From contig JAGCVW010000034.1 of assembly GCA_017962165.1 (NCBI GenBank), positions 1-45,487 of the forward strand: a stretch of DNA of 45,487 nucleotides. Direction: 5' to 3'. Under the pieces are notes generated by a model, which saw nothing but the letters and a program-made list of their open reading frames with translations, ran no database searches and was not told the DNA's origin. This DNA comes from Bacteroidales bacterium (GTDB lineage Bacteria > Bacteroidota > Bacteroidia > Bacteroidales > UBA932). Positions 19,439 to 38,569 of the stretch are shown piece after piece. Numbering within the stretch: position 1 is the first letter of the stretch; the number at the start of each line of letters is the position of its first letter. A program made the translations under genes and the position numbers.

Positions 19439-19774
19439 ATGGAATTCAACGAGAATAAACCCATCTACATCCAGATTGCCGACGACATCTGCGAGCAGGT
19501 GCTATCCGGCAAGCTGGCCCCCGGCGGCCGCATCGCGTCGGTGCGCGAATGGGGTGCGACCATAGGCGTGAACCCCAACACCGTGGCCCGTTCCTACGAC
19601 GAACTCACCGACCGCGGCGTCATCTTCCAGAAAAGGGGAATAGGCTTCTTCGTGGCCGATCAGGCGCGTGAGGCCATCCTCAGTACCGAAAAACGCAAGT
19701 TCATCACCGAAGAACTGCCCGAATTTGTAAAACGCGCCAACCTGCTTGGCATAAACCTCAAAGAATTGATATGA
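19439..19774 (+). CDS. GntR-family transcriptional regulator (YtrA subfamily)
   Basis: A 111-residue repressor: an N-terminal winged helix (PIYIQIADDICEQVLSGKL, PGGRIASVREWGATIGVNPN, TVARSYDELTDRGVI) followed by a short helical tail of about 35 residues, typical of YtrA-type GntR proteins that lack a large effector domain. It lies behind the ABC genes it most likely controls, through the inverted repeat at 17754-17777. Its stop overlaps the next ATG (ATGA). Confidence 0.9.
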   Translation: MEFNENKPIYIQIADDICEQVLSGKLAPGGRIASVREWGATIGVNPNTVARSYDELTDRGVIFQKRGIGFFVADQAREAILSTEKRKFITEELPEFVKRANLLGINLKELI

Positions 19775-20457
19775 AAAGGATTATTATGTTCGCAGTAGCC
19801 TGCTGCTTCTGTCTTACTTCCTGTGTCTTCACCGTCAGCGGCTCCAACGGCGGCAGCGATTCCGCCATCGGCTCCGGCGCCGACCAGACCCGCACCTTCG
19901 ACGCCGCTCCTTTCGACATCCTTACGGTCAACATCCCCTGCGATGTCGTGTATGAGACTGGCGAGCGTAAGGTGGTGATAGTCGCAAGCGAGAAATACAT
20001 GGAACACATCCTGGTCGAGCAGGACGGCAACAGCCTCGTGGTCAAGACCGACGACAAGAAGATACGCTCGTTCAAGAGCACTAAGATATACGTCACCTCC
20101 GATCTCCTCTCCTCCCTTACCGTCAACGGTGCGGTCGATATGGAGTGCAGGCACGGCATCCGTTCGGCGGGCGATTTCGCGCTGACGATTAACGGAGCAG
20201 GCGATGTGGAAATCAAGGGGCTCGATGCAGACGCCATCATGGTTCGCTGCAACGGAGCTGCTGATCTCGAAATACTCGATATCACGGCGGCCGGAATCGA
20301 TGTTACCATCAACGGCGCGGGCGACGCGACCCTTACCGGCGCCGTCGACTACGCCAACCTTACGATCAACGGCGCCGGCGACATCAACGCCCGCGGCCTT
20401 GTGGCCAACACGATACGTCCCTCTGTTAGAGGAGTTGGATCGATAGTAACCAGATAG
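19771..20457 (+). CDS. DUF2807 (head-GIN) lipoprotein
   Basis: A 228-residue lipoprotein with signal MKRIIMFAVACCFCLTSC. The rest is a beta-helix-like domain built on TINGAGD repeats (also RCNGAADL and VRGVGSI), characteristic of DUF2807 proteins that are common in Bacteroidetes. The molecular function is unknown; an envelope role is likely. The ATGA overlap with the GntR gene puts it in the same operon, which hints that the transporter and this protein answer the same envelope signal. Confidence 0.85.
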   Translation: MKRIIMFAVACCFCLTSCVFTVSGSNGGSDSAIGSGADQTRTFDAAPFDILTVNIPCDVVYETGERKVVIVASEKYMEHILVEQDGNSLVVKTDDKKIRSFKSTKIYVTSDLLSSLTVNGAVDMECRHGIRSAGDFALTINGAGDVEIKGLDADAIMVRCNGAADLEILDITAAGIDVTINGAGDATLTGAVDYANLTINGAGDINARGLVANTIRPSVRGVGSIVTR

Positions 20458-20467
20458 ACTCTAAGCA

Positions 20468-20576
20468 GCAGAATCAAACTGCACCCCTGAGCCGCTTTTT
20501 ACCCGGACTAGGGTCGCTCACAGACGCGCAGCGTCATACGAGCGATAGCGGTATCAGGGGTGCAGTTTGCTTCTGC
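20468..20576. repeat. Variable-arm hairpin element, copy 1
   Basis: The left arm (from 20468, GCAGAATCAAACTGCACCCC...) and the right arm (ending 20576) pair with one mismatch and a small bulge. Between them lies the shared core: TTTTTACCCGGACTAGG, GTCGCTC, a GACGC-GCA-GCGTC mini-hairpin, then GAGCGATAGCGG. It starts 10 nt after the DUF2807 stop. The core matches copies 2-4 while the arms do not. No U-tract follows. Confidence 0.85.
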
Positions 20577-20598
20577 CTGAACTCCATCTGCGTCACAG

Positions 20599-20686
20599 CG
20601 TGCATACCTGGTATGTTTTTCGACCAGGTGTGAGCATTTTGGCCCCTTTTTGCACATACCTGGCATATTTCTGAACCAGGTGTGCA
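20599..20686. repeat. Tandem pair of ACCTGG/CCAGGT hairpins
   Basis: Two copies about 52 nt apart, at 20599-20634 and 20651-20686. Each has the order ATACCTGG, a T-rich loop, then ACCAGGTGTG. Copy 2 extends into a longer stem (GCAC with GTGC, with an AT bulge). They lie between convergent genes and could be terminators, protein sites or a small RNA. Confidence 0.5.
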
Positions 20687-20699
20687 CGGTGGCTGGAAA

Positions 20700-20898
20700 T
20701 ATTCAGCTAAACCGAAGAACGATTAGAGGCCCGAAGGGCCGAGGGCGGCATCAGCCGCCGTGCCGAGAGGGAGGAGCGGAGAGCGAGCCCGTAAGGCACC
20801 CGCCGTGAGCGTAGCGGAGGCGGCATGCCCCACCGGGGCAGCTGCGGAGCAGCGGGGGTAGAAGTCGGTCGAAGACCGATGATTCGCTGGAGGACCTG
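20700..20898. other. GC-rich intergenic stretch with small palindromes
   Basis: About 200 nt between convergent genes. It holds several short perfect hairpins: GGCCCGAAGGGCC, GGCGGCATCAGCCGCC, GCCCCACCGGGGC and TCGGTCGAAGACCGA. The GTGAGCGTAGCGGAGG string resembles the right window edge read on the other strand. I see no credible gene. Confidence 0.35.
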
Positions 20899-21720
20899 CT
20901 ACAGCAGGGCCGAAAGCGAATCGTAGTAAGTTTTGCTTACAGGAATCGGGGGAGTGCCGGGAGTATCGAGGTCGGCGAAGACGAAGCCGGCGGAATCCTT
21001 GCGCAGGACAGTAACGTGCGAAGGGTTCACGAAGAATGCCCTCTGGCAACGCTGGAGGCCCTGTTTGTGGAGCATCTCCTCAAGACGCTTCATCGATGAG
21101 CGAAGCTGATACTTCTTCACGCTCTCGCCGTCGAGATAGACGATGTTGACATAATTCTCATTCGCCTCGACATAAAGCAGCGACGATGCCGCCACCGCCA
21201 GCTTGAGCTTCTGGTTCGCATCCTTGAAGCGCACGAGATTATCGTCTGCTGCGGGCTCGAGCTTCTCGCGGCGGTATGCGTAGATGATAGTTCCCATCTC
21301 GATGAGCAGATAGGGAAGGACCAGCACGCCGAAGAAGTCGATAAGGCAGCGCGGCAGCGCGTAGAAGAAGCTGTACTGCTCGCGGCCTATAGTGATCAGG
21401 GCCATGTACATAGCTCCGAAGCAGGCGAAGAAAAACACCTCGAGGATACACCAGGCGGCGTATGAGAGGTAGGTCGGATCCATTTTCTTCCTCAGAAAGA
21501 AGAAGGTAAGGCGCGTTCCGACAAGGATAAGTAAAAGTATCGTCGAAAGGATGGTGACGTTGAACTCGAGAACCATCACTCCTGCATCGAGGAATTCAAT
21601 TATTCCGGCCGGCCTGAAGACCAGCAAAAAGAGCAGGAAGAATACCGGCAGCCCTACGAAATGGACTATCTGAGCCGGAAACCTGAAGAAAGCTTTTGGA
21701 ATACCTGTGTTGTTCTGCAT
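20899..21720 (-). CDS. Membrane-bound LytTR-family transcriptional regulator
   Basis: A 273-residue protein with four likely transmembrane helices in the first 150 residues (for example FVGLPVFFLLFLLVF) and a C-terminal LytTR DNA-binding domain (LYVEANENYVNIVYLDG, LRSSMKRLEEML, FVNPSHV). This architecture senses a membrane signal and binds DNA directly. The ATG at 21720 (MQNNTGIPKAFFRF) is chosen because a TATCTTTG box lies 6 nt ahead; a longer reading would cross the divergent gene's promoter. It probably controls itself or the divergent lipoprotein. Confidence 0.85.
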   Translation of the reverse strand: MQNNTGIPKAFFRFPAQIVHFVGLPVFFLLFLLVFRPAGIIEFLDAGVMVLEFNVTILSTILLLILVGTRLTFFFLRKKMDPTYLSYAAWCILEVFFFACFGAMYMALITIGREQYSFFYALPRCLIDFFGVLVLPYLLIEMGTIIYAYRREKLEPAADDNLVRFKDANQKLKLAVAASSLLYVEANENYVNIVYLDGESVKKYQLRSSMKRLEEMLHKQGLQRCQRAFFVNPSHVTVLRKDSAGFVFADLDTPGTPPIPVSKTYYDSLSALL

Positions 21721-21726
21721 AACGCA

Positions 21727-21754
21727 CAAAGATAAATATATATTGTTATCTTTG
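21727..21754. promoter_or_regulatory. Face-to-face divergent promoter boxes
   Basis: TATCTTTG occurs on the minus strand at 21727-21734 and on the plus strand at 21747-21754, each 6 nt before the ATG it serves (21720 and 21761). The boxes are 12 bp apart, so only one polymerase could bind at a time. Both mRNAs would be nearly leaderless. Confidence 0.6.
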
Positions 21755-21760
21755 CAAAGT

Positions 21761-23086
21761 ATGTCTAAAACCTGGATCAAGACGCTGGCCGCGCTCGCGG
21801 CGATTATCCTGACAAGTTCCTGCCAATGGTTCGGCCGGAACACTTCCGGCGACGCTTTCCCCGAAGTGAAGGGTTTCGAACTCCTCAGCTATGTCCCTTC
21901 GGATGCTTGCGGAGTGATAGTCTGCGAGAAAGTCGCCGACGGTCTCGAGATTCTCTTCGATTCTGGCAGCGTCTTCCGCGAGCTCTCCTACGGGAACCTC
22001 GCCGACTCCAGGATGGTAATCTCATACCATTTCGTAGGCGCCCTTACCCCGATGATAGCCATAGATGCAGGCAGGCCCCAGTCGGCCGCGAAGGAGATTG
22101 CGGCCGTGACGGAAGGGGCAGCGAAGCTGGATCTGGCTTCGCGCGTGATCCAGGCCCATGGCCGTCGCGGCCGCAGGAGCATCCTGCTCCTTAGCCCCTC
22201 GGCCGGCATCCTCGACGCCGCCGAGCGCCACATGGAGGCCCACACTTCCGTGCTGGAGGTGGTCGGCCTCACCGATGCGCTCGAGAAAGCGCCCGCCCGC
22301 GGCGATGTAGTGATATTCCGTAACGACGCTATCTCCAATCTGCTTCCCAAGGACTTCCTCTCGAAGTATCTTACGCGCAAGCAGCTTGTCAATTTCATCA
22401 AGGGCTATTCGGAGTGGACTGTTATGCACCTGACGGGCGCCGAGCCCGCCGGCAGGGGAGTGTACCTCAGCTATGAGGTCCGTAGCGTCCATCCCGACGA
22501 TTTCTCCAAGTCCGCACAGGTCTTCGAGCAGCAGGGCTACGGAGAAAGCAGACTCCCGACCGTGCTGCCCCAGGGTACGACCTACGTCGTGGACCAGTGC
22601 ATACCGTCGGTCGAGAGCTTGATCGAGGCCCGCAAGAAGAACCTCGACGCGCGCGGCGGCCTCAACAAATGGAGCAATACCTGCGCCCAGCTCAAGAAGC
22701 AGACCGGCCTGGATCCGGTAAAATGGGCCATTGAAACCGATATCCGGGAGGTGGCGAAAGTGCAGTGGAAAGGCGAGGAAGTCATCGTGCTGCGCCCGGC
22801 CAAACCCCTGGTCTCCCACAACGTACGCCCCAACGAACACCGCGGCTTCGTCGCCGCCCTGTTCGGCCAGGGCTACGAAATCGCCGACGAATCGCATGCC
22901 GCCTGCATAGGCAACTGGCTTATCATGGGCAGCGAAGATGCAGTCAAGCATTTCATGGCCTCCGAGGTGAGGCAGAAGCTCCATTATTGGCCAACAAAGG
23001 GAGTCAAGGCCGTCGTCCTTGCCGACGACTGCCAGCTCAGCTGGACCCGCAGCGAGCTTCGTTTCGACGTGTACAGAACCTACTAA
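21761..23086 (+). CDS. Lipoprotein of unknown function
   Basis: A 441-residue protein with a lipoprotein signal (MSKTWIKTLAALAAIILTSSC). The body is soluble with no motif I can name. Repeated alpha/beta stretches such as FELLSYVPSDACGVIVCE suggest a large Bacteroidales-specific envelope family. I start it at 21761, where the signal begins and the promoter box lies 6 nt upstream. It is divergent from the LytTR regulator and 3 nt before the acyl-CoA ligase, so it heads a four-gene plus-strand operon. Confidence 0.7.
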   Translation: MSKTWIKTLAALAAIILTSSCQWFGRNTSGDAFPEVKGFELLSYVPSDACGVIVCEKVADGLEILFDSGSVFRELSYGNLADSRMVISYHFVGALTPMIAIDAGRPQSAAKEIAAVTEGAAKLDLASRVIQAHGRRGRRSILLLSPSAGILDAAERHMEAHTSVLEVVGLTDALEKAPARGDVVIFRNDAISNLLPKDFLSKYLTRKQLVNFIKGYSEWTVMHLTGAEPAGRGVYLSYEVRSVHPDDFSKSAQVFEQQGYGESRLPTVLPQGTTYVVDQCIPSVESLIEARKKNLDARGGLNKWSNTCAQLKKQTGLDPVKWAIETDIREVAKVQWKGEEVIVLRPAKPLVSHNVRPNEHRGFVAALFGQGYEIADESHAACIGNWLIMGSEDAVKHFMASEVRQKLHYWPTKGVKAVVLADDCQLSWTRSELRFDVYRTY

Positions 23087-23089
23087 GCA

Positions 23090-24751
23090 ATGCTGAAAAT
23101 CAAATCCCTCAACAAGCAGCTCGAGCGCAGTTTCAAGAAGAACTGGTGGAGGCCCGCCCTGTCCAACTACAAGGGCGAGACCATGAACTACGCCATGCTC
23201 GCCGAGCGCATAGGGATCATCCACACACACTACAGCCGCTTCGGGGTGAAGCCCGGCGACAAGGTCGCGATCTGCGGCCGCAACCAGGCCAACTGGGGGG
23301 TAGCTTTCCTCTCGGCCATGACCTATGGAGCAGTGCCCGTGCCGCTTCTGCACGACTTCAACCCGGCAAACATTGTGGACCTCCTGAACCACGCCGAGGC
23401 GAAGGCCTTCTTCGTGGACGAGGCGATATGGGACAAGCTCGACCATTCGAAGCTCCCTGCCAGCCTGATCGGCACGCTCAACCTCGCGAACTTCCGCGTC
23501 CTTGACTCGGTGATCCCGGACCTTGCGGCCGAGCGTTCGAAGATAATTTCCGAATTCCATACTAAGTACGCGTCCGGCATGCGTCCGGAGGACCTTGACT
23601 ACTACAAGGACAGCCCCGACGAGCTTGCGCTCATCAACTATACCTCCGGTACATCCGGCTTCTCGAAGGGCGTCATGATACCCTACAGGGCCCTGATCGC
23701 CAACATCGAGTTCGCCGCAAACGAGGCCGAGCCCCAGATGGACTACACCTCCGACATGGTCGCGATGCTCCCGAGCGCCCACATGTACGGCCTCATGTTC
23801 GAGTTCCTCTTCGAGATGTGCATAGGCGCGCACACGCACTTCCTGACGAAAACCCCGAGTCCCAAGGTTATCATGACCGCATTCCAGGAAATCCACCCGG
23901 CGACGATAATCTCGGTACCGCTGATCATCGAAAAGGTCTACAAGAACCAGATCAAGCCCATGGTCCGCAGGTTCCGCTTTTTCTTCGACATACCCCTTAT
24001 CGGCCGCGTGCTCATGCGCTCGGTCCGCAAGAGGGTGAAGAACGCCTTCGGCGGCTCCTTCGAGGAAGTCATCCTTGGCGGTGCGGCCGTGAACCCGGAG
24101 GTAGAGAGGTTCTTCCATAAGATGGGCTTCCCCTTCACCGTCGGCTACGGCATGACCGAATGCGCTCCCATCATAACCTATGCCCATTGGAACCGCTGCA
24201 AGGTGGGTTCGTCGGGCAAGGCGGTGGCTGGCTGCAGGATACGCATAGATTCGAAGGACCCGGAGAAGATCCCCGGAGAGATCCAGGTCAAGGGCCCCAA
24301 CGTCTTCCTGGGCTACTACCGCAACGAAGAGGCGACGGCAGCCGCGTTCACCGAGGACGGCTGGTTCCGCACGGGCGACATGGGCGTTATCCGCAAGGGC
24401 TACCTGTACCTTAAGGGCCGCCTCAAGTGCATGATACTCTCGGCCAACGGCCAGAACATTTACCCCGAAGAGCTTGAGGCAGTAATCAACAGTGTGCAGT
24501 ATGTGGTCGAATCGCTTGTCGTGGAGGAAAAGGGCGGCCTGACTGCCATTATTTTCCCTGATTATGTCAGCGCGGCCATCGACGGCATCGAGGCCGAAGA
24601 GCTGGAAGGCAAGCTCCAGAGCCTGCTGCCCGAAATCAACGAGCAGCTTCCCAATTACGCCCACATCAGGAAGATCGAGCTCCTCAAGGAGGACTTCGAG
24701 CGCACCCCCAAACGCAGTATTAAACGTTATCTGTATCTGAAAAATGAATAA
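23090..24751 (+). CDS. AMP-forming acyl-CoA synthetase/ligase (long-chain fatty acid type)
   Basis: A 553-residue adenylate-forming enzyme that activates a carboxylic acid with ATP and joins it to CoA. It shows the P-loop-like INYTSGTSGFSKGV, the ATP/acyl motif GYGMTECAPI, GWFRTGDMG and the C-terminal hinge GRLKCMILSANGQNIYPEE, with the final Lys in TPKRSIKRYL. The sequence resembles bacterial long-chain FadD-like ligases, though shorter than the roughly 600-residue kind. The substrate is inferred. The stop overlaps the deaminase start by 8 nt. Confidence 0.88.
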   Translation: MLKIKSLNKQLERSFKKNWWRPALSNYKGETMNYAMLAERIGIIHTHYSRFGVKPGDKVAICGRNQANWGVAFLSAMTYGAVPVPLLHDFNPANIVDLLNHAEAKAFFVDEAIWDKLDHSKLPASLIGTLNLANFRVLDSVIPDLAAERSKIISEFHTKYASGMRPEDLDYYKDSPDELALINYTSGTSGFSKGVMIPYRALIANIEFAANEAEPQMDYTSDMVAMLPSAHMYGLMFEFLFEMCIGAHTHFLTKTPSPKVIMTAFQEIHPATIISVPLIIEKVYKNQIKPMVRRFRFFFDIPLIGRVLMRSVRKRVKNAFGGSFEEVILGGAAVNPEVERFFHKMGFPFTVGYGMTECAPIITYAHWNRCKVGSSGKAVAGCRIRIDSKDPEKIPGEIQVKGPNVFLGYYRNEEATAAAFTEDGWFRTGDMGVIRKGYLYLKGRLKCMILSANGQNIYPEELEAVINSVQYVVESLVVEEKGGLTAIIFPDYVSAAIDGIEAEELEGKLQSLLPEINEQLPNYAHIRKIELLKEDFERTPKRSIKRYLYLKNE

Positions 24752-25166
24752 GTTCGACGAAAGGTATCTCGAAATGGCCGAAGTCTGGGCCAAGAATTCG
24801 TATTGCAAGCGCCGTCAGGTCGGCGCCCTGCTCGTGAAGGACCGCATGATCATCTCCGACGGCTACAACGGCACCCCCGCCGGTTTCGAGAACCAGTGCG
24901 AAGACGAAAACGACGTTACGAAGCCCTATGTGCTCCACGCCGAGGCGAACGCCATCACCAAAGTGGCCAAGTCGGGCAACAGCTCGGAAGGTGCGACCCT
25001 CTATGTGACCGCATCTCCCTGCATGGAATGTGCGAAACTCATAATCCAGTCCGGGATCAAGAGGGTCGTCTACAAAGACCTTTACCGCATCACCGACGGA
25101 ATAGACCTCCTGAAGAGCGCCAACATCGAATGCGAGCAGCTTGACACCTCAAAGGATGAAAAGTAG
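24744..25166 (+). CDS. dCMP/deoxycytidylate deaminase
   Basis: A 140-residue zinc deaminase that converts dCMP to dUMP for thymidylate synthesis. The zinc site is visible as HAEANAI (His and catalytic Glu) and SPCMECAK (two Cys). The length and the N-terminus (FDERYLEMAEVWAKNSYCKR) match the ComEB/dCMP deaminase family. It overlaps both neighbours, the ligase by 8 nt and the protease by 11 nt. Confidence 0.92.
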   Translation: MNKFDERYLEMAEVWAKNSYCKRRQVGALLVKDRMIISDGYNGTPAGFENQCEDENDVTKPYVLHAEANAITKVAKSGNSSEGATLYVTASPCMECAKLIIQSGIKRVVYKDLYRITDGIDLLKSANIECEQLDTSKDEK

Positions 25167-26685
25167 CAACTGGTCAGCGATAGCCGTGGCCCTGGCGGGA
25201 ATCCTGCTGGGCGTCATGGGCGTGCTCACCGTCCAGAAGGTGTTCGCCGACAAGGCCCGCCTCAAGGCCGAGTATCAGGACTGGCGCAAGCTCAACCTTA
25301 TCCTCCAGAAGGTCGACGAGAACTATGTGGACCCGGTCGACAGGCAAAAACTCACCGACGCCGCCGTAGTCGCCGCGCTCTCGCAGCTCGACCCCCATTC
25401 GATCTACCTTCCCCCGCAGGAACTTGAAGAATCGGAAACCAGCCTTGCCGGCGGATTCGACGGCATAGGCATACAGTTCAACGTCCCCAACGACACGGCG
25501 GTCGTGATTGAGGTCATCCCCGGCGGCCCCTCGGAAAAGGTCGGCCTGCAGCCGGGTGACCGCATCCTCAAGGTCGACACGATCGAGATCGCCGGGCGCA
25601 GGTACCCGCAGGACAGCATGGTCCGCCATATGCGCGGCCCTTCCGGCACTAAAGTCACGGTCACCGTCCGCCGCGAAGGTGAGGAAATCCCCTTCGAAAT
25701 CACCCGCGACAAGATCCCGACCCACAGCGTCGACGCCGCCTTCATGGTCGGCGACACTACCGGCTACATACGCCTCTCCAAATTTGCCCGAACCACCTTC
25801 AAGGAGTTCAGCGAGGCCGCCTCGCGCCTCAGCTCCGAGGGCATGAAGGAGCTGGTCTTCGACCTGCGCGACAATTCCGGCGGCTACCTCGACCAGGCCC
25901 TCCTGCTCGCAAACGCCTTCCTGGAGAAGGGCGACACGATCGTCTATATCGAAGGACTCCACCGCAAGCGCGAAGTCTACAAGGCCGACGGCAGGGGAGC
26001 GCTCAAGGATGTGGGACTGAAGGTGCTCATCGACGAAGGTTCGGCCTCGTCCAGCGAGATCTTCTCCGGCGCGGTCCAGGACAACCGCCGTGGAACCATC
26101 TACGGCCGCCGTTCGTTCGGCAAGGGCCTTGTCCAGGAGCCCGTCTTCTTCACCGACGGCAGCGGAATCCGCCTCACGGTCGCCCGTTTCTACACGCCCT
26201 CCGGCCGCTGCATCCAGAAACCGTATACAAAGGATTACGCCTACGAAGTCTACAAGCGCTACGACGAAGGCGAGATGGTCGATGCGGACAGCATGAACGT
26301 CTCCAAGGGCGGCATCATCCCCGACGTGTTCGTCCCGATCGACACCACCCGTGCTTCCGATTTCTATATCAAGTGCAACAGGAAAGCCACAACCATGCGC
26401 TTCTCATCGGCCTATTTCGACTCCCACAAAGAGCTGACCGAAATCTCCGATTACTCCGAATTGCTGAAGTATCTGGACAAGGCCGGGCTTGACCGCCTCT
26501 TCCTGGATTATGCCCGGCAGAAAGACGGTTTCGTCCCCAAACCGGGCGAATGGGACGACTCGAAGAGTTACATGATGACCCAGATCAAGGCACTTGTCGG
26601 CCGCTACTCCAAGCTCGGCGACAATGCCTTCTACCACCTTTATCTGCAGATCGACGACGTCTTTGCCGCCGCTACTGCGCAATAA
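25156..26685 (+). CDS. S41-family C-terminal processing protease (CtpA/Prc-like)
   Basis: A 509-residue periplasmic serine protease anchored by an N-terminal helix (AIAVALAGILLGVMGVL). A PDZ domain (about 90-170, GFDGIGIQFNVPND) precedes the S41 domain. The catalytic Ser298 in GSASSSE and Lys323 in SFGKGLVQ are 25 residues apart, as in CtpA. Such enzymes trim or degrade envelope proteins with nonpolar C-termini. I choose ATG 25156; a TTG five codons earlier is possible. The 3' end overlaps the convergent TonB-like gene by 14 bp. Confidence 0.93.
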   Translation: MKSSNWSAIAVALAGILLGVMGVLTVQKVFADKARLKAEYQDWRKLNLILQKVDENYVDPVDRQKLTDAAVVAALSQLDPHSIYLPPQELEESETSLAGGFDGIGIQFNVPNDTAVVIEVIPGGPSEKVGLQPGDRILKVDTIEIAGRRYPQDSMVRHMRGPSGTKVTVTVRREGEEIPFEITRDKIPTHSVDAAFMVGDTTGYIRLSKFARTTFKEFSEAASRLSSEGMKELVFDLRDNSGGYLDQALLLANAFLEKGDTIVYIEGLHRKREVYKADGRGALKDVGLKVLIDEGSASSSEIFSGAVQDNRRGTIYGRRSFGKGLVQEPVFFTDGSGIRLTVARFYTPSGRCIQKPYTKDYAYEVYKRYDEGEMVDADSMNVSKGGIIPDVFVPIDTTRASDFYIKCNRKATTMRFSSAYFDSHKELTEISDYSELLKYLDKAGLDRLFLDYARQKDGFVPKPGEWDDSKSYMMTQIKALVGRYSKLGDNAFYHLYLQIDDVFAAATAQ

Positions 26686-27376
26686 AGCTGTATACTATAT
26701 TACCTATTTCTTTGGGATTGTTGGTTTTGCTTCGCGAGAAGCGGCTGCGGCGCGCTGCGCCCAGTGCGTAGTCCCTAAGACATTTGTCCGACGAAGACAC
26801 CTCGTCCTGGATTTTCGCATCGGTAACGTCTCCAGCGGCATTTACCGTGATGATTACCGTAACTTCCCCAGCTCCAATACACTTGTATGCCGGGATGGGC
26901 AGGTAGCTGCCCTTGCGCTCGCCAAGGGAGTAGGAGAGGACCGAGGGGCCCTGGTATGTTGGCTCGTCCCGCTCAGGCTTCTGCTTCGGAGCCGGCTCGG
27001 CAACGGTAATGGATTCCTCTTTCCGGTTGATGTTCTCGCGCGCCTGCTTCTCGATCCGGGCGGCGTCGCGATAGAGGCGCTCGGCATCGGTGCCTCGGTC
27101 GTCCTTCAGCTTACTGCGGTCTACGACCACGTTGCGCAAAGGCTCGACCTCGCGCACTCCCGCCTCGCGCAGCATCTTCTCGACCCGCGCATTGGCCGCC
27201 TTCTGGCGTGCAATCTCCTTTTCGAGCTTCTCCACCGGATCCTGCTTCGAGAAATCGAGCATGAAAGCCTGGCGCTGACTCTCGATATTGGGGTGGACAA
27301 CCGTCAGGAACAAAACGAGAATCACCGCGAGGTGGACGCTCACGGTGACCAGTATTCCTATGAGGTTGTCGCGCAT
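26672..27376 (-). CDS. TonB-like energy transducer
   Basis: A 234-residue protein with one N-terminal membrane helix (LIGILVTVSVHLAVILVLFL), a charged helical periplasmic spacer rich in Glu, Lys and Arg, and a C-terminal TonB-type domain (GEVTVIITVNAAGDVTDAKI, then LRDYALGAARRSRF). TonB proteins carry ExbB/ExbD energy to outer-membrane receptors; an exbB-exbD operon lies 2 kb upstream on the same strand. The proline-rich spacer is weak compared with classical TonB. Confidence 0.82.
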   Translation of the reverse strand: MRDNLIGILVTVSVHLAVILVLFLTVVHPNIESQRQAFMLDFSKQDPVEKLEKEIARQKAANARVEKMLREAGVREVEPLRNVVVDRSKLKDDRGTDAERLYRDAARIEKQARENINRKEESITVAEPAPKQKPERDEPTYQGPSVLSYSLGERKGSYLPIPAYKCIGAGEVTVIITVNAAGDVTDAKIQDEVSSSDKCLRDYALGAARRSRFSRSKTNNPKEIGNIVYSFIAQ

Positions 27377-27392
27377 AACGGCAGCGGCCAGG

Positions 27393-28013
27393 TTATTTCT
27401 GTGCCCTCAGTTCCTTGCGGATCGTGTTGTTGATAACGTCGATCGCGACCTTGTTGTGGCCGCCCTGGGGGATAATGATATCAGCGTAGCGCTTGCTCGG
27501 CTCGATGAACTGCAGATACATCGGCTTCACTGTCTTCGAGTAACGCTCGATCACCCAGCGCACGTCCTTGCCGCGCTCCACTATGTCGCGGGTCATCACG
27601 CGCATCAGACGGTCGTCGTCGTCCGCATCCACGAATATCTTGATGTCCATCTGGTCGCGGAGCTCCGGGCATGTGAACACCAGAATACCCTCGATGATGA
27701 TAACGTCCGCTGGATCTACGTGGACCGTCTCGGTCTTGCTGCGGCTGCAGGATATATACGAATAGATAGGCTGCTCGATGCTCTTGCCGGCCTTCAGCTC
27801 CGAAAGCTGCTGGCAGATAAGCTCCCAGTCGATAGCGTCCGGATGGTCGAAGTTGTGGTTGCGCTTCTCCTCGTCCGTCAGGTCGCTCGAATCCTTGTAA
27901 TACGAATCCAGCGGAATCGTAACGACGCTCTCGCCCTTCAGCGTTTCAGTAATAGCCCTGACTACCGTGGTCTTTCCACTGCCGGATCCCCCGGCGATAC
28001 CGATAACTAACAT
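27393..28013 (-). CDS. udk: Uridine kinase
   Basis: A 206-residue P-loop kinase that phosphorylates uridine and cytidine in pyrimidine salvage. Walker A is GIAGGSGSGKTTVV near 5-18, followed by the nucleoside-binding DSYYKD and FDHPDAIDW, and IIEGILVF. The length is normal. Hairpin copy 2 lies 16 nt upstream of the start and separates it from asnS. The TonB-like gene ends upstream by 16 nt, so they may share an mRNA. Confidence 0.95.
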   Translation of the reverse strand: MLVIGIAGGSGSGKTTVVRAITETLKGESVVTIPLDSYYKDSSDLTDEEKRNHNFDHPDAIDWELICQQLSELKAGKSIEQPIYSYISCSRSKTETVHVDPADVIIIEGILVFTCPELRDQMDIKIFVDADDDDRLMRVMTRDIVERGKDVRWVIERYSKTVKPMYLQFIEPSKRYADIIIPQGGHNKVAIDVINNTIRKELRAQK

Positions 28014-28029
28014 ATCTTATAATGTCTGA

Positions 28030-28133
28030 GTATTTCGGTTAGCTGTTTTGACCCGCATTTACCCGGAATAGGGTCGCTCCCAGCTGCGAAGCATCATTGA
28101 GCGATTGCGGGTCAAAACAGCTAACCGAAATAC
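28030..28133. repeat. Variable-arm hairpin element, copy 2
   Basis: Arms of 27 nt (GTATTTCGGTTAGCTGTTTT... to CCCGC) pair without a mismatch. The core is ATTTACCCGGAATAGG, GTCGCTC, a short GCT/AGC mini-hairpin, and GAGCGATTGCGG. The right arm stops one base before the asnS stop codon; udk starts 16 nt beyond the left arm. Confidence 0.9.
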
Positions 28134-28134
28134 G

Positions 28135-29544
28135 TTAAAACTCTGCATTTTTTGGCGTACGAGGGAACGGGATGACGTCCCTGATGTTTTGCATTCCGGT
28201 GATGAAGAGCAGTAGACGCTCGAAGCCAAGTCCGAAGCCGGAGTGGGGGCAACTGCCGAAACGGCGGGTATCCAGGTACCACTCGAGGTTGTCGCGCTTC
28301 ATGTGGAGCTCGTCGATGCGGCTCTCCAACTTCTGAAGGTCGGCCTCGCGCTCGGATCCGCCAATGATCTCCCCGATCTTCGGGAAGAGAACGTCCATCG
28401 CGCGCACGGTCTTACCGTCTTCGTTCTGCTTCATGTAGAAGGCCTTGATATCCTTCGGATAGTCCGTAAGGATCACCGGCCTCTTGAAATGCTCTTCTAC
28501 CAGATATCTTTCGTGTTCGCTCTGGAGATCGGTTCCCCAGTCAACGGGATATTCAAATGTGTGTCCGTGGGCAATCGCATCCTTGAGGATGTCGATTCCC
28601 TCGGTATAGGGCAGGCGCACGAACTCAGTGTCGATAACGCCTTCCAGACGCGCGATGAGCGTATCGTCATAGCGGTCGTTGAGGAACTGGATGTCGTCGC
28701 GGCAGTTGTCAAGGGCATACCTGACGAGGCTCTTGATGAAGTCCTCCGCCAGATCCATGTTGTCCTTGATGTCGTAGAACGCCATCTCCGGCTCTATCAT
28801 CCAGAACTCCGCAAGATGCCTAGGAGTATTGGAATTCTCGGCGCGGAAGGTAGGACCGAAGGTATAGATCTCGCCCACGGCGGTCGCCCCGAGCTCGCCT
28901 TCGAGCTGGCCGCTGACCGTAAGGCTGGTCATCTTTCCGAAGAAGTCCTTGCTGTAGTCCGGCAGGCCCTTCTTGTTCTTCGGGACGTTGTTCAGGTCGA
29001 GCGTAGTCACCTGGAACATCTGGCCGGCGCCTTCAGCGTCGGACTCGGTAATCAGCGGGGTGTTCAGGTAAACGAAGCCCCTGCTGTGGAAATACTCGTG
29101 GATGGCGAAGGCCATCTGGCTGCGAAGGCGGTAAATCGCGCCGAAGGTATTGGTCCTCGGGCGCATGTGGGCAACCGTACGCAGATACTCGAAGGAGGTG
29201 TCTTTTTTCTGGAGAGGGTAGCGCATGGGGTCGCTCTCGCCGTAGACCTCGATATTCTTAGCCTTGATCTCGACTGCCTGCCCGCTGCCTATGGACTCCA
29301 CCAGGGAGCCCTTGACCGCGATGCACGCGCCGGTGCTGATCCTGGCGAGTATCGGCTCTGTCTCCGGAGTCTTGTCGACGACTATCTGGATATTCTTGAT
29401 GGTCGAACCGTCGTTGAGCGCGATGAACGCTATTTCTTTATTTCCTCTCTTGGTCCTTACCCAACCTTTGGCAAGGACGTCCTGTCCTGCGGGCATTGCC
29501 AGCAGGTCCTTGACTTTAGTGCGGAGTATTTCCTTCTTACTCAT
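28135..29544 (-). CDS. asnS: Asparaginyl-tRNA synthetase
   Basis: A 469-residue class IIb synthetase. An N-terminal OB anticodon-binding domain ([20 protein letters not shown]) precedes the catalytic domain. Motif 2 is [20 protein letters not shown] and motif 3 is [16 protein letters not shown] followed by [10 protein letters not shown]. The length and motifs separate it from aspartyl- and lysyl-tRNA synthetases. A strong intrinsic terminator lies in the 63-nt gap to exbD, and no TAnnTTTG box is visible in that gap. Confidence 0.96.
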
Positions 29545-29556
29545 TTGCTTTCTTTT

Positions 29557-29589
29557 GATAAAAGAGCAGCCCCTGTGGCGGGGCTGCTC
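29557..29589 (-). terminator. Intrinsic terminator between exbD and asnS
   Basis: GAGCAGCCCC (29564-29573) pairs perfectly with GGGGCTGCTC (29580-29589), and the minus strand then reads TTTTATC. It ends the exb operon 12 nt before the asnS start codon. Confidence 0.88.
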
Positions 29590-29607
29590 ATATACGGTAG
29601 TCTGAGC

Positions 29608-30075
29608 TTACTCGGACGGTCTCCTTGCGGAGTACATGATCTTAAGCGCGGAGCAGCGGCGCAGCTCCTGCTTTACGTCGGTAATGATACCCATGCGGAC
29701 ATCCTGGTCGGCCCTGATGCAGACGGTCATGAGGGGGCGGTCGCCCTCGTTCATGGCCTCACGCTCGGAAGCGACGAAGTCACGGATGTCTTCCTTGGTC
29801 TTGAAGGAGTCGTTGAGCTGGATACGGGCGTCGGTACCGTACTGGGCCTGGAGGGACCTGATAGGAGTACCGATGTTGATATAAGACGAAAGGTCTTTAC
29901 GCTCCAGCTTCGTAACCTCCGAAGCCTCGGGAAGCTTCACCTGAACCTTGTTCTCGGTCTCGCGCATCTGCGTGGTGACCATGAAGAAGAACAGGAGCAT
30001 GAACACGATATCGGAGAGGGAACCCGAAGAGATTCCGGGAACTTCCTTCTTGTTGTTTCCACCAAACATTGACAT
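29608..30075 (-). CDS. exbD: ExbD/TolR-family biopolymer transport protein
   Basis: A 155-residue protein with a short cytosolic N-terminus, one membrane helix carrying the protonatable Asp in GSLSDIVFMLLFFFMVTT, and a small periplasmic domain. Together with ExbB it forms the proton-driven motor for TonB. It is the last gene of the exb operon, 15 nt after the other exbD, and is followed by a terminator. Confidence 0.92.
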   Translation of the reverse strand: MSMFGGNNKKEVPGISSGSLSDIVFMLLFFFMVTTQMRETENKVQVKLPEASEVTKLERKDLSSYINIGTPIRSLQAQYGTDARIQLNDSFKTKEDIRDFVASEREAMNEGDRPLMTVCIRADQDVRMGIITDVKQELRRCSALKIMYSARRPSE

Positions 30076-30090
30076 GGCTGAATCCTCCTA

Positions 30091-30675
30091 TTATCTTGTT
30101 GATGCGTTTACGTCCTTAGGCTCCGCTTCGGAAATGTTCTGGGGGACGGCTTTCTTCACCCATCCCTGCTCCTCCTCCGAGAGGCGGGCATACTTCTTTC
30201 CGAAATTGGCCATCGAGAATTCGTCGCGGAGTTCGTTGACTGCCTTCACAAGCTCGTTCTGCACAGCGATGTATGTAGAGTAGCTTGTACCGCGGTCGTT
30301 CTGCAGGGAGATAACACCCTTCGACACGGGGACGGCCTTGAAACCCTCGATCTCCTTAACTTCCTTTTCGGGGAGGTTGGGGTCGTTGTTGGGGTTGTCG
30401 AGGAACTCCTTGACTTTGTCCTTCAGGAAAGCTATTTCGATTCCTTCACTACCGGCAAGTACCCTGTCTGCGGAATTGATTCGCACCACGATGATGTTGC
30501 GGCGGTTGATCTTCTGGTCCTCCACCTGCTGCTTTGAATCAGGGATGGGGGGAAGACGGCGCGCAAGACCTGTCTGGCTTCCCATGGTTGTAGTCATGAG
30601 GAAGTAGCAGAGCAGAAGGAATGCGATATCCGCTGTGGAACTGGTATTTAAACCCGGAGTTTTTTTCTTGGACAT
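30091..30675 (-). CDS. exbD: ExbD-family protein, longer paralogue
   Basis: A 194-residue ExbD relative. The membrane helix with its Asp is in NTSSTADIAFLLLCYFLMTT, followed by a longer, charged periplasmic region than the second ExbD. Bacteroidetes often carry two ExbD forms per ExbB. I place the start at ATG 30675 (MSKKKTPGLN); a GTG 36 nt upstream would overlap the preceding gene by 29 nt. Confidence 0.9.
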   Translation of the reverse strand: MSKKKTPGLNTSSTADIAFLLLCYFLMTTTMGSQTGLARRLPPIPDSKQQVEDQKINRRNIIVVRINSADRVLAGSEGIEIAFLKDKVKEFLDNPNNDPNLPEKEVKEIEGFKAVPVSKGVISLQNDRGTSYSTYIAVQNELVKAVNELRDEFSMANFGKKYARLSEEEQGWVKKAVPQNISEAEPKDVNASTR

Positions 30676-30682
30676 AGTCTTG

Positions 30683-31129
30683 TTACTTTGCCTGTTTCTT
30701 GTTGCGGACACCGGCTACGATCTCTCCGACGATGATGGAGAGGATAGTCAGGCCACCGACCAGATAGGTCAGATTGAGAATAGTATCCGTGAGCTTGAGG
30801 GTCGCTTTGGAAGGCTGCTCAAGCATTCCGAGGGCCTCTGAGCCGGGGGACAGCAGGTATACTACCAGAACAACGACAGCGGTACCTCCAATGACGGCAA
30901 GAATCTTCCAGAGGAATTTCTTGTCGTTCTTCACCCCGATCCATCCGCCGATGCAGATGATGCTGGCCAGGGCGAGGCCGACCATCGCATAAGTCCAGTA
31001 GAAGAGCACGTCGACGGCCACCGCATCGTTCCTCTCGAAGCCGTAGATCCAGGCTCCGATAAAGATCACGACGCTGAGGACGAGGAGACCCAGCAGGACC
31101 CATTTGATGATTTTACTGTAGTCTTTCAT
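30683..31129 (-). CDS. Four-helix membrane protein of the exb operon
   Basis: A 148-residue integral membrane protein with four likely helices (WVLLGLLVLSVVIFIGAWIY, YAMVGLALASIICIGGWIGV, ILAVIGGTAVVVLVVYLL, YLVGGLTILSIIVGEIV). I do not know its function. Similar proteins occur between exbB and exbD in other Bacteroidales, so a role in motor assembly is possible. It sits 9 nt after exbB and 7 nt before the long exbD. Confidence 0.75.
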   Translation of the reverse strand: MKDYSKIIKWVLLGLLVLSVVIFIGAWIYGFERNDAVAVDVLFYWTYAMVGLALASIICIGGWIGVKNDKKFLWKILAVIGGTAVVVLVVYLLSPGSEALGMLEQPSKATLKLTDTILNLTYLVGGLTILSIIVGEIVAGVRNKKQAK

Positions 31130-31138
31130 GATCCTGAA

Positions 31139-31930
31139 TTATTTTGCCTTGTAAGCTGTAAGGACGTCCACGAGGTCGATCGAAGCCTCTTCCATGTCGA
31201 TGGTGATGCTGTCGATCTTTGCGAGGATGTAGTTGTAGAACACCTGGAGGATCATAGCTACGATAAGACCCGCAACGGTAGTGATAAGAGCGACCTTCAT
31301 ACCGCCAGCCACAACGTTAGGGGAGATATCACCTGCAGCCTGGATAGCGTCGAAGGCCTGGATCATACCGATAACGGTTCCAAGGAATCCGAGGGACGGG
31401 GCGATGGCGATGAAGAGGGAGATCCATGAAAGGCCGTTCTCAAGCATGCTCATCTGGATCGAGCCGGAAGAAACTACGTTCTTCTCAACTACGTCGAGGC
31501 CCTGATCATAGCGGTCGAGTCCGTCGTAGAAGATCTTCGCCACAGGACCGCGGGTCTCGCGGCATACTGCCTTTGCGGCTTCGATTCCGCCCTCCTTAAG
31601 AGCTGCCTCGACCTTCTCGACGAGAGCCTTTGCATTGGTCCTCGAGAACGAGAGATAAAGGATACGCTCGATCGAAAGAGCCATACCGAGGATAAGGCAG
31701 ATGATAACGAGTGACATGAACCCTGCACCACCCTCGATGAACTTTGTCTTGAGGGCCTGATGGAGAGGAATCTCGCTCTGAGTGTTGAACGGGTCAACCT
31801 CAGCGTCGTCTGCAGGGGCGGCTACCTCAGTGGCTTCCGGTGCAGCCTGCTCAGATTCCTGTGCCGATGCGATGCTGGCGGAGAAGACCAGGATGGCCGC
31901 TGCTGCCAAAAACATGGAAATCTTTTTCAT
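31139..31930 (-). CDS. exbB: ExbB/TolQ-family proton channel
   Basis: A 263-residue MotA/TolQ/ExbB protein. It begins with a signal-peptide-like segment (MKKISMFLAAAAILVFSASI) and an acidic Ala/Pro-rich stretch, as in Bacteroidetes ExbB, then three helices including the core SLGFLGTVIGMIQAF and VALITTVAGLIVAMI. It forms the proton channel with ExbD. The 98-nt leader up to hairpin copy 3 is A-rich with repeated AACAA, favourable for translation in this phylum. Confidence 0.94.
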   Translation of the reverse strand: MKKISMFLAAAAILVFSASIASAQESEQAAPEATEVAAPADDAEVDPFNTQSEIPLHQALKTKFIEGGAGFMSLVIICLILGMALSIERILYLSFSRTNAKALVEKVEAALKEGGIEAAKAVCRETRGPVAKIFYDGLDRYDQGLDVVEKNVVSSGSIQMSMLENGLSWISLFIAIAPSLGFLGTVIGMIQAFDAIQAAGDISPNVVAGGMKVALITTVAGLIVAMILQVFYNYILAKIDSITIDMEEASIDLVDVLTAYKAK

Positions 31931-32028
31931 AACTGTTTTTGATTGTAGTTTTTAATTGTTGTTATTGATTTGTTGTTTTTATTCCAATTCACAAATTCGA
32001 TGCAATATAGTAAAAATTATTCAATGTT

Positions 32029-32134
32029 GGAACGTGCGGGCAGACTTTTAAGGCGCAATCGCTCGACGGCGCTGCGCGTCTGGGAGCGACCCTAGTCCGG
32101 GTAAATGCGCCTTAAAAGTCTGCCCGCTCGTTCC
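32029..32134. repeat. Variable-arm hairpin element, copy 3 (inverted)
   Basis: Arms of 28 nt (GGAACGTGCGGGCAGACTTT... ) pair with one mismatch. The core is in the opposite orientation to the other copies: GCGCAATCGCTC, the mini-hairpin region, GAGCGACCCTAGTCCGGGTAAAT. The right arm reaches the last base of the tatD stop codon (32134). ExbB starts 98 nt away on the other side. Confidence 0.9.
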
Positions 32135-32916
32135 TATGGATTTGTCAATCCGAAAAGATTCTCCGCGTTAGCGGTGGTTGCGGCGGCGACCCGTTCGATG
32201 CTAATGCCTTTTATCTCAGCGAGTTTGGCCGCTATCAGAGGAATATACGAGCTTTCGTTGCGCGTCCCGCGCAGCGGAGTCGGAGCCATATACGGCGCGT
32301 CGGTCTCCAGCAGAATCATCTCGATTGGGATGTCCTTTACGGCCTCTGCGATTCCGGCCTTCTTGAAGGTCAGGACTCCGCCGATTCCCACGCTCCAGTC
32401 TCCGTATCGGCGAATTCGCGCCGCAGTCTCGGCGCTGCCGCTGAAGGCGTGGAGGTTGCCCCTCAGGCCAAGCCCGCGGCAGCTGTCCAGCACCGCGAAA
32501 AAGTCGTCAGTGGCGTCGCGCAGATGTATGTTGACCGGCAGGTCCAGCTGCGCGGCCAGCTCCAGCTGCGCCTTCAGGGCCTCTTTCTGCTGCTCCTTAA
32601 ACTCGGTGGTGAAGTGGTAATCCAGCCCGATCTCGCCTATGGCCACGAAACGCGCCGGGTCCTTCGCATGCTCGAAAACCAGATCGAGCTCGTCCTTCCA
32701 GTTCTCGCGCACCGCGCCCGGATACAGGCCGAGCATCGGGAACACCACGCCCGGATGCCTCCCCACGAGCTCGAGCATACGCGGCCGGTCGTGGCTGTCC
32801 ACGTCTGCGTGGAGCATCCGCGTCACCCCCGCCGCGATCGCCCGCGCGATCACCTCGTCCTGCTCGCTCCCGTAAGCCTCGTCGCTCGGATGGCAATGTG
32901 TATCGATAAATTCCAT
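32134..32916 (-). CDS. tatD: TatD-family metal-dependent DNase
   Basis: A 260-residue metal-dependent hydrolase of the TatD DNase family. The metal ligands are in FIDTHCHPSD, GEIGLDYH, NIHLRD, HAFSG and LETDAPYMAP. Such enzymes act as 3'-5' exonucleases in DNA repair or nucleic-acid turnover. ATG 32916 (MEFIDTHCH) is preferred over a GTG two codons earlier, since the promoter box TAAATTTG ends 5 nt before it. The gene is flanked by hairpin copies 3 and 4. Confidence 0.93.
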   Translation of the reverse strand: MEFIDTHCHPSDEAYGSEQDEVIARAIAAGVTRMLHADVDSHDRPRMLELVGRHPGVVFPMLGLYPGAVRENWKDELDLVFEHAKDPARFVAIGEIGLDYHFTTEFKEQQKEALKAQLELAAQLDLPVNIHLRDATDDFFAVLDSCRGLGLRGNLHAFSGSAETAARIRRYGDWSVGIGGVLTFKKAGIAEAVKDIPIEMILLETDAPYMAPTPLRGTRNESSYIPLIAAKLAEIKGISIERVAAATTANAENLFGLTNP

Positions 32917-32921
32917 TGACA

Positions 32922-32929
32922 CAAATTTA
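32922..32929 (-). promoter_or_regulatory. TAnnTTTG box 5 nt before the tatD ATG
   Basis: TAAATTTG on the minus strand is followed by TGTCA and the ATG at 32916. The -33 position would fall inside the arm of hairpin copy 4, and no clear TTTG is seen there. Confidence 0.4.
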
Positions 32930-32940
32930 ATAAATTATGC

Positions 32941-33042
32941 AGAAACAGCCATGTACTTTCAGCCGCATTTACCCGGACTAGGGTCGCTCCTTGACGCGCA
33001 GCGCCTTTGAGCGATAGCGGCTGAAAGTACATGGCTGTTTCT
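32941..33042. repeat. Variable-arm hairpin element, copy 4
   Basis: Arms of 26 nt (AGAAACAGCCATGTACTTTC... to CCGC) pair perfectly. The core is ATTTACCCGGACTAGG, GTCGCTC, GACGC-GCA-GCGCC, GAGCGATAGCGG. The right arm contains two bases of the dprA stop codon; the left arm lies 25 nt before the tatD ATG. Confidence 0.9.
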
Positions 33043-34210
33043 AATATTTTTTGACGAGTACGGAACAGCGTTGGAGGATGTCGGTGACGATGAAGCCCCC
33101 GGTTTCGAGGGTCCCGACGAGGGTCGCGGTGCGGACGTAGTCCAGCCCCAGTTGCTCGGCGATTTCTTCAACGCTGATTCCGCGGTTGAGCTTGATGCAG
33201 ACGGCGATGCGGCAGAGCTTGTCGACGGTGTCCGGGTCGATCTGCCCGGTATAGTGGCCGCGCACCTCCTCTTCGAGCTCGGCCTTGCGGCGACGGTTCC
33301 AGGCGCCCAGCCCGAGGGCGTCCGGCAGGGCCTCGACATCCGCGATCGGCTCGGCGACCTTCTCGCGCAGCAGTGCGTTGCAGCCCGCCGAGCGGATGTC
33401 GTCCACCCTGCCGGGCAGCGCCCACACGTCGCGGCCGTAGTCGAAGGCCGTGTGCGCGGTAATCAGGCTCCCGCCCCTGCGCTTCGATTCTACGACCAGC
33501 GTGGCGCTTGAAAGCCCGGCGATGATGCGGTTGCGCCGCAGAAAGGTCGCGGCCTGGGCCCCGGTCCCCGGAGGGAAGTCTGTCACGAGCCCACAGCCCG
33601 GAGTAGAGGCGATCTGCTCCGCCCAGCGGCTGTTCCCGGACGGATAAACGGTCTCAGGCCCCGTAGGAATCACGGCGATCGTGCGCAGTCCCGCCTCAAG
33701 CGCAGCCCGGTGGGCCATGATATCGACCCCATAGGCCAACCCGCTCACAATCACTGGCTTACGCTGCGCCTCCGCGAGCGTGAACACAATCCTGCGCGTC
33801 CATTCCTGGCCGTAGAGCGAGATGTCCCGCGTCCCCACGATCGAGATGAACGGGCCTTCGGCAAAAAGGTCGGCGGGGGTGGAAGCGCTGCGGACGTACA
33901 TGCCTGCGGGAGCGTCCGGGCACTCGGCCAGTGCAGCAGGGTAGTCCTCCTCGCCGAGCGCGACGAACTCCACGCCCTGCGCGTGCATGCCCTCCAATTC
34001 TTCTTCGCTCCGTTTGAATTCCGTGTCGGAAAGCAAGCCCTGGAAACGCGAAAAGGGACCGAGCAAAGCGTCCCTTTCACGTTCGCCCAGGCTGAACAGT
34101 GCGGCAATCGAGCCGCTTTCTTCGATAAGTCTGTGCGAGACCTTCGGATAATACCCGAAGGCGCGGTTGAGCGTACATGCGCCCACCTTTGTAAGTTTTG
34201 AAGTTTCCAT
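33041..34210 (-). CDS. dprA: DNA-processing protein DprA
   Basis: A 389-residue DprA that loads RecA on incoming single-stranded DNA. The Rossmann-like core has ISIVGTRDISLYGQEW, SGLAYGVDIMAH, FPPGTGAQAATFLRRNRIIA and GSLITAHTAFDYGRDVWALP. The C-terminal winged helix (KLNRGISVEEIAEQLGLD) is present. Length is normal. It lies 17 nt after the queA stop on the same strand. Its stop overlaps the end of hairpin copy 4. Confidence 0.94.
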   Translation of the reverse strand: METSKLTKVGACTLNRAFGYYPKVSHRLIEESGSIAALFSLGERERDALLGPFSRFQGLLSDTEFKRSEEELEGMHAQGVEFVALGEEDYPAALAECPDAPAGMYVRSASTPADLFAEGPFISIVGTRDISLYGQEWTRRIVFTLAEAQRKPVIVSGLAYGVDIMAHRAALEAGLRTIAVIPTGPETVYPSGNSRWAEQIASTPGCGLVTDFPPGTGAQAATFLRRNRIIAGLSSATLVVESKRRGGSLITAHTAFDYGRDVWALPGRVDDIRSAGCNALLREKVAEPIADVEALPDALGLGAWNRRRKAELEEEVRGHYTGQIDPDTVDKLCRIAVCIKLNRGISVEEIAEQLGLDYVRTATLVGTLETGGFIVTDILQRCSVLVKKY

Positions 34211-35277: not shown

Positions 35278-35343
35278 TGGTCGATATTAGATATAGTAAT
35301 TTATATACGGCCAAAAAACCGAAAAAGTTTCACTCCATTTTCC

Positions 35344-35448
35344 GTGCCGCTCAACCCCCTCACTATCAGCCACTTGCTAAAAGACGGCTCGCGATTTCGC
35401 GGAGGCGTCTTTCAATAACTCCCTGACAATCAGAGAATTGGTCGCCAC
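35344..35448. repeat. 105-bp MITE-like element, copy A
   Basis: About 88 % identical over its full length to the reverse complement of 38459-38563. It starts GTGCCGCTCAAC and ends ATTGGTCGCCAC, so the ends are imperfect inverted repeats. The inside holds a stem, AAAAGACGGCTCG with GAGGCGTCTTTC. It ends 9 nt from the Nudix stop codon at 35458. Confidence 0.8.
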
Positions 35449-35457
35449 GCAGTGCGT

Positions 35458-38453: not shown

Positions 38454-38458
38454 TCGGC

Positions 38459-38563: not shown

Positions 38564-38569
38564 GGAGGG

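Follow-up and report, generated by a model that had tools for sequence, protein, structure and literature searches.

Rickettsia palindromic elements (RPE), small palindromic repeats 105 to 146 bp long and with predicted long stem-loop structures, occur in intergenic regions and also fused in frame in conserved protein genes (PMC2229807; Ogata 2000 as described there). Correia/NEMIS, RU-1/2/3, and other bacterial miniature inverted-repeat transposable elements (MITEs) are likewise short mobile repeats, some of them fused in frame, and several have terminal repeats, target duplications, or TA ends (PMC2229807). Template switching is known to homogenize hairpin arms and to invert the spacer in yeast (PMC8604942) and to leave the same signatures at RNA hairpins (PMC8794818); the events described in these two papers are sporadic, and the loops that they invert are short, at most 7-8 bases long. 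In the mitochondria of Nematomorpha, perfect inverted repeats lie within protein genes and their arms evolve in concert (PMC6649704). Here we describe a family of palindromes recognized in a 45,487-nt stretch of DNA from a Bacteroidales bacterium of the UBA932 lineage (positions 1 to 45,487 of contig JAGCVW010000034.1, assembly GCA_017962165.1, referred to below as the window). These palindromes consist of a conserved core enclosed by arms in which pairing, rather than sequence, is preserved, and they probably represent an RPE-like mobile element in which template switching or conversion from arm to arm resets both the arms and the orientation of the core.

Like RPE, the element is a multicopy palindromic stem-loop that is found both between genes and in frame within conserved genes. 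Unlike RPE, it has coding copies of only 76 to 100 bp, locus-specific arms around a conserved core, inversion of that core in place, and two peptides linked by the flip. The likeness is one of layout and description, the covariance model search reported below having covered the genus, family, and order of the source organism, and the bacterial group appears to differ from that of RPE. The palindromes of the REP/RAYT (TnpAREP) system resemble the present ones in being multicopy hairpins, mostly extragenic in the source genome and its sister genome; however, the present element has no linked Y1 gene that we could find, no GTAG-type tag, far longer stems, and copies inside genes. Terminal repeats, target duplications, or TA ends of the kind listed for several MITEs have not been established for it. 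The Nematomorpha repeats are mitochondrial, and the accessible text of that report does not mention a conserved core. The arm homogenization and inversion are those of the template-switching papers, as far as their accessible text goes, but here they affect a dispersed family with cores of 28 to 50 nt, flipped at 6 of 14 sites. Template switching and RPEs are already known, and it is their combination that is new; no description of this palindrome family was found in the open-license literature searched by title or by the start of the abstract.

A palindrome scan of the window (arm score of ≥17, loop of ≤90) found exactly four large palindromes, at 20468-20576, 28030-28133, 32029-32134, and 32941-33042, the same four that an earlier sequence-only reading had pointed out, whereas palindromes of such size appeared in 0 of 20 dinucleotide shuffles. 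An unfiltered covariance search returned four strong matches (E values of 9e-13 to 3e-8), the next best having an E value of 0.15, and Rfam showed no match above its gathering score in the window save a tRNA. The parts of the four copies, together with one site that is empty in the window, are as follows.

20468-20497, plus strand: 5' arm of copy 1, the subfamily arm GCAGAA.CAAACTGCACCCC, which recurs at other loci
20498-20546, plus strand: core of copy 1, a CCC..GGG mini-hairpin plus a GTCGCTC..GAGCGAT hairpin
20547-20576, plus strand: 3' arm of copy 1
28030-28057, plus strand: 5' arm of copy 2
28058-28105, plus strand: core of copy 2
28106-28133, plus strand: 3' arm of copy 2, one base from the stop codon of the open reading frame (ORF) 28135-29544 (minus strand), which we take to be asparaginyl-tRNA synthetase-like
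32029-32057, minus strand: 3' arm of copy 3, in core orientation
32058-32105, minus strand: core of copy 3, the only window core on this strand
32106-32134, minus strand: 5' arm of copy 3, in core orientation, overlapping by 1 nt the stop codon of ORF 32134-32922 (minus strand), presumably TatD-like
32941-32966, plus strand: 5' arm of copy 4
32967-33016, plus strand: core of copy 4
33017-33042, plus strand: 3' arm of copy 4, overlapping by 2 nt the stop codon of ORF 33041-34210 (minus strand), assumed to be DprA-like
36480-36532, no strand: empty site, at which the sister genome has a short-armed copy (C18:50379) and the window has none

The two-hairpin layout given for copy 1 is common to all four cores, which are 48 to 50 nt long. 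Without gaps, the arms of copies 1 to 4 measure 30, 28, 29, and 26 nt and contain 5 (plus 1 G-U), 0, 1, and 0 mismatches, respectively; when copy 1 is folded, a bulge brings back most of its inner pairs. All four copies sit at the 3' ends of ORFs, copy 1 beginning 10 nt past ORF 19771-20457.

The evidence on how these hairpins evolve comes from the comparison of the source genome of the window (G000) with its sister genome (G006); in the following, L and C labels denote loci or contigs. We compared 14 pairs of orthologous sites, the window's four and ten more, leaving out L010/L065, where one flank aligned, and L014/L193, where the G006 copy is truncated. Among the 349 stem columns of these pairs, both sides have changed in 37 and one side in 32, although only 8.0 double changes would be expected under independence and 10,000 permutations reach 19 at most; 28 of the 37 doubly changed columns are Watson-Crick pairs in both species. 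Gains or losses of a single base have occurred in both arms together at L015/L073 and L018/L068. At 6 of these 14 pairs, the two species carry the core in opposite orientations, with the outer arms following the orientation of the flanks, and a mismatched inner segment of the arm turns along with the core at L016/L022 and L007/L034. Within the window, copy 1 is present at the orthologous place in G006 with the same core orientation, as is copy 2; the core of copy 3 is inverted relative to its G006 orthologue while the arm orientation is retained; and copy 4 has 5 columns that are doubly changed yet paired. A covariation analysis of 15 copies found changes on both sides in 19 of 20 arm pairs, values that were reached in 0 of 500 shuffles. 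Both signatures of template switching, coupled arm changes and in-place inversion of the loop, are therefore present in this pair of genomes.

The source genome contains 20 core matches at ≤3 mismatches (0 in the reversed control), and the core lies inside 14 of the 20 long palindromes in the 434 kb scanned. The palindrome census and the analysis of empty sites covered 433,587 and later 727,098 of its 1,243,704 bases. G006 has 44 exact core matches, and 18 of 27 long palindromes in 430 kb of its sequence contain the core. Within the genus, a covariance model built from 15 short-core copies of six species detected the element in at least 40 of 151 genomes (E ≤ 1e-3); the figures are at least 22 of 299 genomes and 3 of 25 genera for the family (E ≤ 1e-4) and at least 1 of 247 genomes for the order, the one being the source genome, which is included in the other counts as well; these are lower bounds because only part of the candidates in each genome were scored. 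Exact 15-mer searches had found 2 of 61, 1 of 199, and then 13 of 400 genomes, again with the source genome included, and the near species-specificity that they suggested is too narrow in the light of the model. An exact core scan of viral contigs gave no match, and the one gammaproteobacterial locus from a similar scan of genome contigs, which has no palindrome around the match, was taken as a chance hit.

The sequence-only reading had seen a mobile hairpin family that preserves pairing and not sequence, and this view held up, with two corrections. First, the arms are not wholly unrelated to each other. The mean pairwise identity of 27 chosen arms from G000 and G006 is 0.348, compared to 0.264 after shuffling (maximum of 200 shuffles, 0.276), a slight likeness that would fit common descent with heavy divergence. 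Second, the copy 1 arms recur in the source genome at L010 and L014, partly at L011, and also at L013 (a contig end), as well as in G006. Similarity of arm sequence, named in that reading as a finding that would refute it, does characterize some subfamilies. Such subfamilies with shared arms occur in some species (G522, G299, and G372); in others (G000, G006, G568, and G302) the arms differ locus by locus. Cores in the window's lineage have acquired an insert and, in many cases, a TAG, and the copies there are found mostly at the 3' ends of genes. At L073, L059, L069, L011/L017, and L119, the element is duplicated in tandem, partly or fully, with a spacing of 67 to 119 nt. Contigs end in or beside copies at L013, L050, and L066, and the L013 flank mirrors itself past the arms, so that assembly breakage at the hairpin is probable there.

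A different distribution is seen in two sister species, G348 and G019, where 20 of the 26 model hits were fetched and 18 of these 20 proved to lie in an open frame judged to be that of the gene; of the other two, L251 is intergenic and L262, at a contig end, is unclear. The core in many congeners is CATTTGCCCGTACAGGGTCGCGAAGCGAC or near it and is open in all six frames. Among 30 scanned insert-bearing ORFs from G348, G019, and other genomes, 29 match a Pfam family, including DapF, prephenate dehydrogenase, AtpG, AtpB, Fmt, UppP, MurE, MurB, UvrA, RsmH, MetRS, LigA, DnaX, and an FabD-type acyltransferase; the thirtieth, L263, is presumably YfhO-like. Insert-free orthologues of MurE, UvrA, RsmH, Fmt, MetRS, and WbqC are encoded in G000 or G006. 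In AtpG, the insert falls in a loop whose length varies across the genus and is present in 4 of 31 aligned sequences, two of which had been chosen for it, so that this count is not a frequency. In the source genome itself, a gene for an FHA/zinc-ribbon protein holds one copy in frame.

Thirty-three coding copies were selected, with gene frames picked by hand and some copies orthologous and hence not independent. Eleven of them read FARTGSRSD (forward) and 21 read SLRDPVRAN (reverse); thus, 32 of the 33 share one frame if the two phases that are exchanged when the 28-nt core flips in place are counted as one, the odd copy being that in UppP, with a divergent core in another frame. Both core orientations occur in 4 of the 9 gene groups that have copies in more than one species (prephenate dehydrogenase, UvrA, DnaX, and AtpG), the correspondence of insertion sites within the groups having been assessed by eye. 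The arms of coding copies pair as well as those of noncoding ones. One of the insert-bearing frames, L240:3-1841, is a single open frame in which a match to the LptF/LptG C terminus precedes Fmt with its insert and which represents either a fusion or a stop codon missing from the draft.

We therefore favor a non-autonomous mobile palindromic element of approximately 80 to 110 bp, with a conserved core of 28 to 50 nt and arms mostly of 24 to 35 nt, which behaves like RPE in spreading to many loci and residing in frame in genes. It is dispersed, differs in presence and absence between species, and forms subfamilies that share arms. It can reside there because, in the coding copies, all six frames of the core are open and almost every copy uses the same one, giving FARTGSRSD or, when flipped, SLRDPVRAN. 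Once the element has settled, each arm would serve time and again as the template for the other, through template switching or conversion; such copying would reset complementarity whatever the sequence and carry indels to both arms, and an exchange spanning the core would turn the core round in place. The coupled changes and indels, the core inversions, and a lack of bias on the RNA strand are direct observations; the mechanism of arm copying at the level of the polymerase is our inference. The stem may also grow outward, by taking in stop-adjacent host sequence and an inverted copy of it. The element is most likely selfish and near neutral. A bolder version, which we regard as unlikely, is that it needs no transposase at all: the hairpin would spread, grow, and repair itself solely through template switching by the host polymerase, with arms written from the adjoining host sequence, and its freely turning core would be tuned to stay open in all six frames, allowing the element to hide in essential proteins and vary their surface loops.

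Outward growth is suggested by sites that are occupied in G006 and lack the element in G000. At C31:84684, the gene-side outer 10 to 12 nt of the arm, with the stop codon included, are already present in the empty allele, and the opposite arm is an inverted copy of that segment. C25:12001 and C18:49245 resemble this site; in place of the latter, the window carries another repeat (35341-35450). Host-derived outer arms are thus a suggestive lead, seen in the sequences of three of the five G006 sites lacking in G000.

The same sites bear on the possibility that the core alone is a homing unit entering the loops of existing hairpins, with the arms belonging to the host, as the sequence-only reading had partly envisaged. 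Such a unit would account for arms that remain with their flanks while core variants differ between orthologues, and the partly host-derived outer arms at three sites agree with it. However, at three empty sites (window 36480-36532 and G000 L197:4807-4814 and L166:6548-6565) there is no palindrome with arms of ≥9, and at a fourth, L175:3585-3692, a native hairpin stands intact next to the insertion place in both species. In addition, 21 tatD loci of congeners, taken with their neighbor synteny unchecked, have no palindrome (score of ≥14) at either site, and subfamilies share arms at unrelated loci. We consider loop homing very improbable. Still less probable is a dedicated invertase that flips the core, as in phase variation, and leaves arm identity as a by-product. 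Cores are indeed flipped at 6 of 14 sites, and also within genes, but outside the subfamilies the arms vary by locus, so that no common recombination site is apparent outside the core; the exchange, where readable, lies within the arms; and an invertase alone would leave the coupled arm changes unexplained.

Two further readings, both quite unlikely in our judgment, concern the mobilization of the element and its role in RNA. The first is that the element is REP-like and depends for its movement on a RAYT/Y1 transposase recognizing the hairpin in single strands. The hairpins are multicopy and, in G000 and G006, mostly extragenic; both genomes have Y1_Tnp matches (6 each, some below the cut-off), and a Bacteroidetes TnpAREP subclass, 2.6, is reported to have atypical secondary structures (PMC6006769, as far as its accessible text goes). 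In 16 genomes, 45 Y1_Tnp matches were found (14 genomes positive, 12 of them over the cut-off), yet the 33 Y1_Tnp loci fetched, with approximately 1.5 kb on each side, contained 0 copies of the element at E ≤ 1, and of the 116 hairpin feet of 58 copies in G000 and G006, 2 have GTAG or GTGG within 2 nt. G347 has 11 copies of the element and no Y1_Tnp match by profile search, whereas G016 has no element and two matches below the curated cut-off. This is a thin test, since G023 has Y1 genes together with one weak copy, and the 16 genomes are mostly element bearing, so that co-occurrence could hardly be tested. Two RAYT/Y1 genes have palindromes of another kind (TACTACTCTGC.. and TTTTTGGACTTCTCCCC..) on both sides, at L077 1385-1424 and 2372-2411 and at L080 918-961 and 1921-1960; the same genomes thus also contain REP-RAYT pairs that belong to other families. 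The involvement of RAYT/Y1 proposed in the sequence-only reading thus found no support.

The other reading is selection at the RNA level: the hairpins would act as bidirectional transcription terminators or form mRNA 3' ends, and ordinary compensatory mutation would hold their stems. Stem stability is very high, and T-runs are found at the ends of some arms (L008, L012, and L020). Of 67 copies in G000 and G006, 7 were set aside as inside an ORF and 60 were classified; a gene 3' end is found within 20 nt of 44 of the latter, and 3 are located between divergent genes, compared to 36 of 163 background gaps; these counts are approximate because the ORF caller is crude and some neighbors are wrong. 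Given this preference for gene 3' ends and the T-run arms, a terminator role is possible for some copies. However, the G348 and G019 copies lie within coding sequence with equally good arms, the indels are coupled across both arms, and the core is free in its orientation, sharing the strand of the gene ending at that point in 16 cases and lying opposite to it in 22. A stem kept for the sake of the RNA should show, on the transcribed strand, G-U mismatches in preference to A-C ones. In the mRNA strand of 31 coding copies, counted from the ninth column outward, there are 22 G-U, 24 A-C, and 18 other mismatches next to 638 Watson-Crick pairs. The absence of a G-U excess and the free orientation of the core indicate a process on DNA, and a structured RNA 3' end, also suggested from the sequence alone, is hard to reconcile with them and with 18 of 20 fetched G348/G019 copies being coding.

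Several points weigh against the mobile element with self-copying arms. In nine of the 37 columns with a double change, at least one of the two species lacks a Watson-Crick pair, and some stem columns are misaligned around indels, for example, in L168/L061. The G-U test is small, and selection for the hairpin could add to the conversion signal. Two of the five G006 sites, C31:42035 and C18:50379 (the latter with arms of 12 nt), have no host-derived outer arm. No transposition event, intermediate, target duplication, or mobilizing enzyme was seen, Y1 being the only enzyme sought, and a site-specific invertase, for which no gene search was made, is a possible if improbable alternative for the flips. 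Finally, the sequences all come from draft genomes, with several copies located at contig ends, and hairpins may be mis-resolved in assembly; six flips with coherent flanks, however, make misassembly unlikely as a general cause.

Other repeats were noted along the way. The window segments 35341-35450 and 38457-38566 form a distinct 110-nt repeat, inverted and 88% complementary, and a hairpin resembling it (TTGCTGAAAGACGGCTC..) is found at L156:6834. Palindromic stretches CATACCTGG / CCAGGTGTG were recognized by eye after copy 1, at 20609-20720 of the window. A double-hairpin repeat (AGTTACTTTGCCCCCG..) with 31-nt arms is present in three copies, at L164 10088-10172, L170 14938-15022, and L171 4080-4164. 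The tatD matches of 10 congeners (e.g., L086, L089, and L090) contain one TGA within the aligned frame, possibly a read-through past the natural end.

How long stems can stay perfectly paired as the sequence of both strands changes has been named as a puzzle in RNA evolution. The accessible text of a 2022 PNAS paper (PMC8794818) regards compensatory change combined with loop inversion as the strongest support that template switching could have and describes the combination as extremely rare. Here, two species alone provide 14 sites that jointly show coupled arm changes, 6 of them with a turned core, and the same element is also found in coding sequence, where RNA pairing should matter least. 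The coupled changes, the turned cores, and the coding location together make the pairing puzzle directly testable. With this family, palindromic insertions that sit in frame in conserved genes extend to a second bacterial group, and here the core encodes an open peptide in either orientation.

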